Part shown: piece after piece, positions 45,570-46,384 of the stretch | Numbering within the stretch: position 1 is the first letter of the stretch | Layout of the letters: each line of letters begins with the position of its first letter | DNA from: Gemmatimonadaceae bacterium | GTDB taxonomy: Bacteria > Gemmatimonadota > Gemmatimonadetes > Gemmatimonadales > Gemmatimonadaceae | Direction of reading: 5' to 3' | Assembly (NCBI GenBank): GCA_030647905.1 | Contig: JAUSJA010000018.1 | Span: 1 to 64,000 of the forward strand | Length of the DNA: 64,000 nucleotides | Notes under the pieces: model-generated | What the model was told of the DNA's origin: nothing | What the model saw: only the letters and a program-made list of their open reading frames with translations | The model's database searches: none | Translations under genes and position numbers: made by a program

Positions 45570-46001
45570 TCAGTGCCGGACGCGGCCGAGACGCGAGACG
45601 ATGATCGTGTCGGCGGCACGATTCCGCGCCACTACCATCGTGAAATTGCTGGCGCCGTATCCGACACCGATCGGAGAATACGTGATGGACGTGCGGTTCG
45701 TCGACAGCGACACCCCATGCGCGGCGCCGATCTCGCGAGCTCTGATCGGCTCCGTCCCGGCGCGAATCGAGATGACCCGACGCGGCGCATCCATGTCGAG
45801 GGTCACCTGTGTGCCGCGCGCGATGGCGACGTGGCGCGCGAGCGAGAACATGGATTCTATCTCCGTCACCGCCCCGCGCACCTCCATGCTGTCTACGAAC
45901 GCCCACGCGCGCGGCAGAGCGATGACGAAGAGCGCAGCGGCCACAGTCATGACCACGGTTACCTCGATGATAGTGAATCCGTCGCTCGTTCGTCCCGTCA
46001 T
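45570..46001 (-). CDS. Type II/IV pseudopilin (GspH/FimT-like)
   Basis: 143 residues from ATG 46001. The prepilin peptidase site is DG|FTIIEV with the conserved Glu at position +5 and a following hydrophobic helix (VTVVMTVAAALFVIALPRAW). The C-terminal domain resembles the GspH/FimT pseudopilin region (SLARHVAIARGTQVTLDM, SPIGVGYGASNFTM). It would be processed by a prepilin peptidase and assembled into a pilus or secretion pseudopilus. No other pilus gene is near, so it stands alone. Confidence 0.87.
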   Translation of the reverse strand: MTGRTSDGFTIIEVTVVMTVAAALFVIALPRAWAFVDSMEVRGAVTEIESMFSLARHVAIARGTQVTLDMDAPRRVISIRAGTEPIRAREIGAAHGVSLSTNRTSITYSPIGVGYGASNFTMVVARNRAADTIIVSRLGRVRH

Positions 46002-46153
46002 GTCGCCCCGCCGCGGTTGATGCAGAATTGCTACCAAGTCGCGCCGCGGGTCATGACACCACCTGCTTCCCACGGGGAGCAAACCACCGCATTCGACAGG
46101 CGATTGCGTTACATCTATGGCGACAGCCACCGCCGATTCACCGGAGAAGAGCG

Positions 46154-46384
46154 ATGAAGATCACGATCGAATACTGCACCGTTTGAAACTACCAGCCCCG
46201 AGCCGCCAGTCTGGCGGCTGAGCTCAAAGACCGCATTCCCGGCGTGGATATCGAGATGATTCCGTCCGGCCACGGACGCTTCGAAGTCTCCCGCGATGGC
46301 ATTCCCGTGTTCGAGAAATCGAAGCTCGGCCGCCACGCAATGCCGGGCGAGATTCTGAAGCTGCTGAATGAGAATTCCACCTGA
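46154..46384 (+). CDS. SelW/Rdx-family selenoprotein (in-frame TGA = selenocysteine)
   Basis: A 76-residue frame with ATG at 46154, GGAG 7 nt upstream, and a TGA at 46184-46186 that reads as selenocysteine at residue 11. Translation around it is IEYCTV-U-NYQPRAASLAAEL, the CxxU/CxxC redox motif and first helix of the Rdx (SelT/SelW/SelH) thioredoxin-like fold. The C-terminal half keeps the family pattern: VDIEMIPSGHGRFEVS, FEKSKLGRHAMPGEI. A SECIS-like hairpin follows the TGA at the expected distance. Standard gene finding would miss or truncate this gene. Predicted role: thiol/selenol redox protein in the cytoplasm. It requires a selABCD system elsewhere in the genome. Confidence 0.88.
46201..46219 (+). 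promoter_or_regulatory. Bacterial SECIS-like hairpin of the selW-like gene
   Basis: AGCCGCC (46201-46207) pairs perfectly with GGCGGCT (46213-46219); the loop is AGTCT, with G as its second base. The loop begins 21 nt after the TGA. Both the spacing and the G within the first two loop bases fit the known rules for bacterial SECIS elements. Confidence 0.75.

Follow-up and report, generated by a model that had tools for sequence, protein, structure and literature searches.

A probable SelW-like selenoprotein gene of the Rdx family in Gemmatimonadota

Bacterial SelW-like selenoproteins had already been described by 2005. In the Sargasso Sea report, they form the most abundant selenoprotein family of that data set, with 48 sequences that combine a CXXU motif with a bacterial SECIS element (PMC1088965), and a later survey places SelW-like proteins of sequenced bacteria in Deltaproteobacteria, Clostridia, and Symbiobacterium (PMC1794560). 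More recently, SelW of Campylobacter jejuni (CJnc60) was described as a protein of 80-81 amino acids whose UGA codon is decoded by tRNA-Sec, a full-length product being supported by Ribo-seq and proteomics (PMC11955535). Here, we describe a gene of this family in a Gemmatimonadaceae genome, located within the window (the whole 64,000-nucleotide stretch of DNA that was analyzed). We consider it highly probable (roughly 0.97) that the gene encodes a bacterial SelW-like selenoprotein of the Rdx family and that its internal UGA is decoded by means of SelB and a hairpin.

An rdx gene with an in-frame TGA and its homologues

The features of the locus are as follows.

45570-45998, minus strand: GspH-type prepilin, divergent upstream neighbor (PF12019, 29.7 bits)
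46143-46146, plus strand: GGAG resembling a Shine-Dalgarno site, separated from the ATG by 7 nt (sequence)
46154-46384, plus strand: selW/rdx gene, 76 amino acids, predicted selenocysteine at codon 11 (translation; Pfam Rdx and NCBIfam SelT/W/H matches)
46175-46186, plus strand: CxxU redox motif Cys8-Thr9-Val10-Sec11, TGC ACC GTT TGA (sequence; C and U columns conserved)
46184-46186, plus strand: UGA codon, probably read as selenocysteine (in-frame TGA kept in relatives; selenocysteine machinery)
46201-46219, plus strand: putative bacterial SECIS hairpin AGCCGCC-AGUCU-GGCGGCU (fold z = -2.7; covariation in 34 distinct sequences and in 107 rows)

The gene starts with an ATG at 46154-46156, a GTT at codon 10 precedes the TGA at codon 11, and 65 more sense codons follow before the terminal stop, also a TGA (46382-46384); the sequence-only reading had given these coordinates, the ribosome site, and the resulting protein correctly. 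Translated with U for the TGA, the frame yields MKITIEYCTVUNYQPRAASLAAELKDRIPGVDIEMIPSGHGRFEVSRDGIPVFEKSKLGRHAMPGEILKLLNENST. This protein scores 63.1 bits with the Pfam model Rdx (PF10262), for which the cut-off is 22.6 (E = 2.8e-17), the alignment spanning positions 1-73 of the 74 in the model, and it also passes the cut-offs of two NCBIfam models, TIGR02174 (53.8 versus 34.2 bits) and NF041051 (SelTWH_Campy, 88.9 versus 88 bits). The similarity of the read-through frame to Rdx proteins is thus far above chance, and the curated PF10262 and TIGR02174 thresholds together with the C8-T-V-U11 motif near the N terminus bear out the family proposed from the letters alone. From its CxxU motif, the product would be a redox protein of thioredoxin-like type. 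The expectation that standard annotation would lose such a gene holds for open reading frame callers, which stop at the TGA, but not for the NCBIfam "(seleno)protein" models, which match it. A family search of the whole genome returned a single Rdx locus, the window gene, with one TGA inside.

The same arrangement recurs across the phylum. An Rdx match was found in 47 of 61 genomes of the same order, and the readable ones carry a single TGA at the corresponding codon, the exceptions being a masked copy in G005 and a second, CxxC-type Rdx in G026. In a wider sample of the phylum, Rdx was matched in 149 of 297 genomes, in almost every case with a single TGA; the stop-less ones among the matches listed were four CxxC-type genes and the gene of G157. 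The codon-11 position was TGA in all 80 motif-extracted sequences, and the carriers were mainly records labeled Gemmatimonadaceae or Gemmatimonadetes. Alternatively, an ordinary Rdx gene of the CxxC type might have acquired this TGA through a sequencing error or through a mutation that made it a pseudogene, as Cys-type Rdx proteins exist and G157 carries TGC at the codon in question; however, because independent assemblies show the same TGA in nearly all Gemmatimonadota homologues, the remaining frame is conserved, and the downstream hairpin covaries at synonymous sites, we regard this explanation as extremely improbable, and an error at the TGA, named beforehand as a refuting result, is excluded in practice. 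A second refuting result named beforehand, a sense codon with unrelated flanks in close relatives, was absent: nearly all have TGA, and the sole Cys homologue found among them was that of G157.

This homologue provides a natural control for the selenoprotein reading. G157 belongs to the same family as the host, and its genome is 100% complete in one contig; the codon is TGC (Cys) in the context CVGCNYQPRAA (C1:2897500-2897706, L156), and the hairpin has lost the pair at each of its two ends. The best selB match in G157 was below the cut-off, and no tRNA-Sec scored above the gathering threshold. Cysteine change, hairpin decay, and loss of the machinery appear to go together in this genome, as expected, the replacement of selenocysteine by cysteine having been seen in this one case. 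From the distribution of the gene, we lean toward the view that SelW is an old selenoprotein of Gemmatimonadota in which the selenocysteine form is dominant, kept mainly by vertical descent (as judged by its spread only), and that gene loss or change to cysteine follows loss of the machinery.

Several further observations concern the homologues. Two records labeled Gammaproteobacteria MAG (L149, L153) hold the same selenocysteine-type gene, complete with its TGA and its hairpin and sharing about 55% identity with the query. G170, a genome of the same order, carries a second Rdx copy (C55:623-862; L157, L163) with the motif IEYUAEUEYQ, in which TGA occupies the Cys position as well as the Sec position (UxxU) and a hairpin-like GCCGCC-CGTGT-GGCGG follows the second TGA; this copy could be a double-selenocysteine protein or an assembly error. 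No other clear UxxU copy was found in 395 genomes of the phylum, and a match in G138 also shows two TGA codons. Closely 3' of rdx, a frame resembling phosphofructokinase by eye, with a start such as MRIA(L/I)STGGGDAPG, is present in the relatives L013, L035, L038, L062, and L066, but not in the window.

The hairpin downstream of the UGA

The 5' arm of the hairpin (46201-46207) begins 15 nt past the TGA, the AGUCU loop (46208-46212) begins 22 nt past it, and the 3' arm occupies 46213-46219. The 7-bp stem noticed in the sequence-only reading is therefore present, but its start at 21 nt after the TGA needs correction, and the placement of G "in the first two loop bases" was loose: the conserved G (46209) is the second base of the five-base loop or, where RNAfold adds an A-U pair and leaves GUC, the first of three. 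No Rfam family fits the hairpin, the only nearby match being SrbA on the opposite strand, at 20.3 bits against a gathering score of 69.

The RNAfold energy of the hairpin departs only modestly from expectation (z = -2.7 over 42 nt), and it is the comparative data, rather than the fold energy, that provide the real evidence. Across 34 aligned distinct sequences (set A2), 96.6% of the pairing cells were paired versus 88.6% in shuffles, cells altered on both sides of the hairpin numbered 23 where 6 were expected, and none of the slid versions of the hairpin came close (62.6% paired or less). The outermost pair joins the third codon positions of Arg16 and Ala22, both of which are free to vary synonymously; in a set of 46 rows, A-T, G-C, and C-G interchange at this pair, and 43 of 46 rows are paired versus 24 expected, whereas other third-position columns, used as controls, display no comparable excess. 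When only synonymous Arg and Ala codons are considered, 97 of 102 rows are paired versus 62.8 expected, a value reached in none of 20,000 permutations, although such permutation p-values overstate certainty, as relatives are not independent, and the third-position control columns guard against this in part. These columns indicate that kinship does not explain the excess at the outermost pair, within the limits of that partial guard. The loop G is invariant (107 of 107 rows), and the loop codon takes only the forms AGT, GGT, AGG, or GGG in the 46-row set, with serine always written AGT.

In GC-rich DNA, a stem of this kind might arise as a by-product of conserved amino acids (Ala-Ala...Ala-Ala) and have no role in decoding, and several of its pairs do link bases at positions one and two of conserved alanine codons, which would pair anyway. 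Against this, the outermost third-position pair covaries within synonymous codons, the serine of the loop codon is always AGT, and the cysteine homologue has lost both end pairs, which together make a mere by-product highly unlikely. Covariation between two third positions that are both free to change synonymously shows the hairpin to be under selection beyond amino acid constraint, as SECIS-directed selenocysteine insertion predicts.

Selenocysteine machinery of the host and the proposed decoding of the UGA

Family searches of the host genome, an assembly of 3.1 Mb in 37 contigs with 98.6% completeness, returned selA (534 bits), selB (353 bits, cut-off 242), selD (359 bits), and a tRNA-Sec with anticodon UCA (69 bits, L046:2541-2639). 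On gene content, the host thus has the whole bacterial selenocysteine system, in line with the earlier suggestion that the organism uses selenocysteine; a genome lacking selB, selC, and selD, the remaining result that had been named as refuting, is thus not what was observed, and the organism is a selenocysteine user independently of the window gene. The tRNA-Sec gene lies directly 3' of the selD stop codon (G000:C8, L046:1501-2639), and the host selD appears to be a selenoprotein gene too, as the last residue of its CAGU motif is encoded by an in-frame TGA.

Across the 61 genomes of the order, an Rdx match and a strong tRNA-Sec match occurred together in 41 and were both missing in 11, whereas 9 were discordant (6 with Rdx only and 3 with tRNA-Sec only; Fisher p = 7.5e-6, relatedness ignored). 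Incomplete MAGs account for several of these discordant cases. In the Rdx-positive G006, G007, G010, G017, G029, and G038, no strong tRNA-Sec was found even with more candidates scored; selB is present in G006, G029, and G038 despite this.

A frame with a TGA names no residue by itself, and the codon might be read as Trp or Cys through a general recoding or through ordinary stop read-through. Such a reading is at odds with the terminator of the selW gene, which is itself TGA, with a genome that encodes SelA, SelB, SelD, and tRNA-Sec(UCA), with the place of the TGA at the C/U position of Rdx proteins, and with selection on a SECIS-like hairpin, and we regard it as extremely improbable. Sequencing error, pseudogene, TGA reassignment, and a hairpin due to amino acid constraint were thus all rejected, on the basis of TGA conservation, machinery, and synonymous covariation.

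In bacterial selenoprotein synthesis, SelA makes Sec-tRNA(Sec) with selenophosphate from SelD, and hairpin-bound SelB delivers it to UGA. For the window gene, we infer that SelB carrying Sec-tRNA(Sec) would bind the hairpin in the mRNA, which extends from 15 to 33 nt after the UGA, and would thereby place selenocysteine at codon 11, where translation would otherwise stop. This would yield a 76-amino acid thioredoxin-like Rdx protein with CxxU at residues 8-11, near the N terminus, and presumably a small thiol/selenol oxidoreductase forming a selenenylsulfide.

Comparison with known SelW-like proteins

Among solved structures, the Rdx chains PDB 2fa8 (Atu0228) and 2ljk (human C17orf37) are sequence relatives of the window protein over nearly its full length; both presumably carry cysteine, not selenocysteine, and would need no SECIS. 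No paper on selenoproteins or SelW of Gemmatimonadota was found in the literature, judged by titles and the openings of abstracts, and the string "Gemmatimonad" is absent from the main text of PMC1794560. What is new here would be a well-supported, Gemmatimonadota-wide clade of a known selenoprotein family that no paper found has reported.

Synonymous covariation that is hard to explain otherwise thus indicates selenocysteine use throughout a phylum that is itself known mostly from metagenome-assembled genomes. With its UGA, hairpin, and machinery, the locus is a clean test case for the calibration of SECIS finders and for the correction of genome annotation; the understanding of the mechanism of selenocysteine insertion is unchanged by it.

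The C. jejuni SelW belongs to another phylum, and its product is supported experimentally, whereas the window gene is known from sequence alone; on the other hand, both are small SelW proteins with a UGA to be decoded, and the Campylobacter model NF041051 matches the window protein (88.9 bits). The groups named for the known SelW-like proteins in the available text (Deltaproteobacteria, Clostridia, and Symbiobacterium) differ from that of the window host, but the window gene shares with the bacterial SelW-like selenoproteins the family, the CXXU motif, and a UGA followed by a SECIS element with a G in its apical loop (PMC1088965, PMC1794560).
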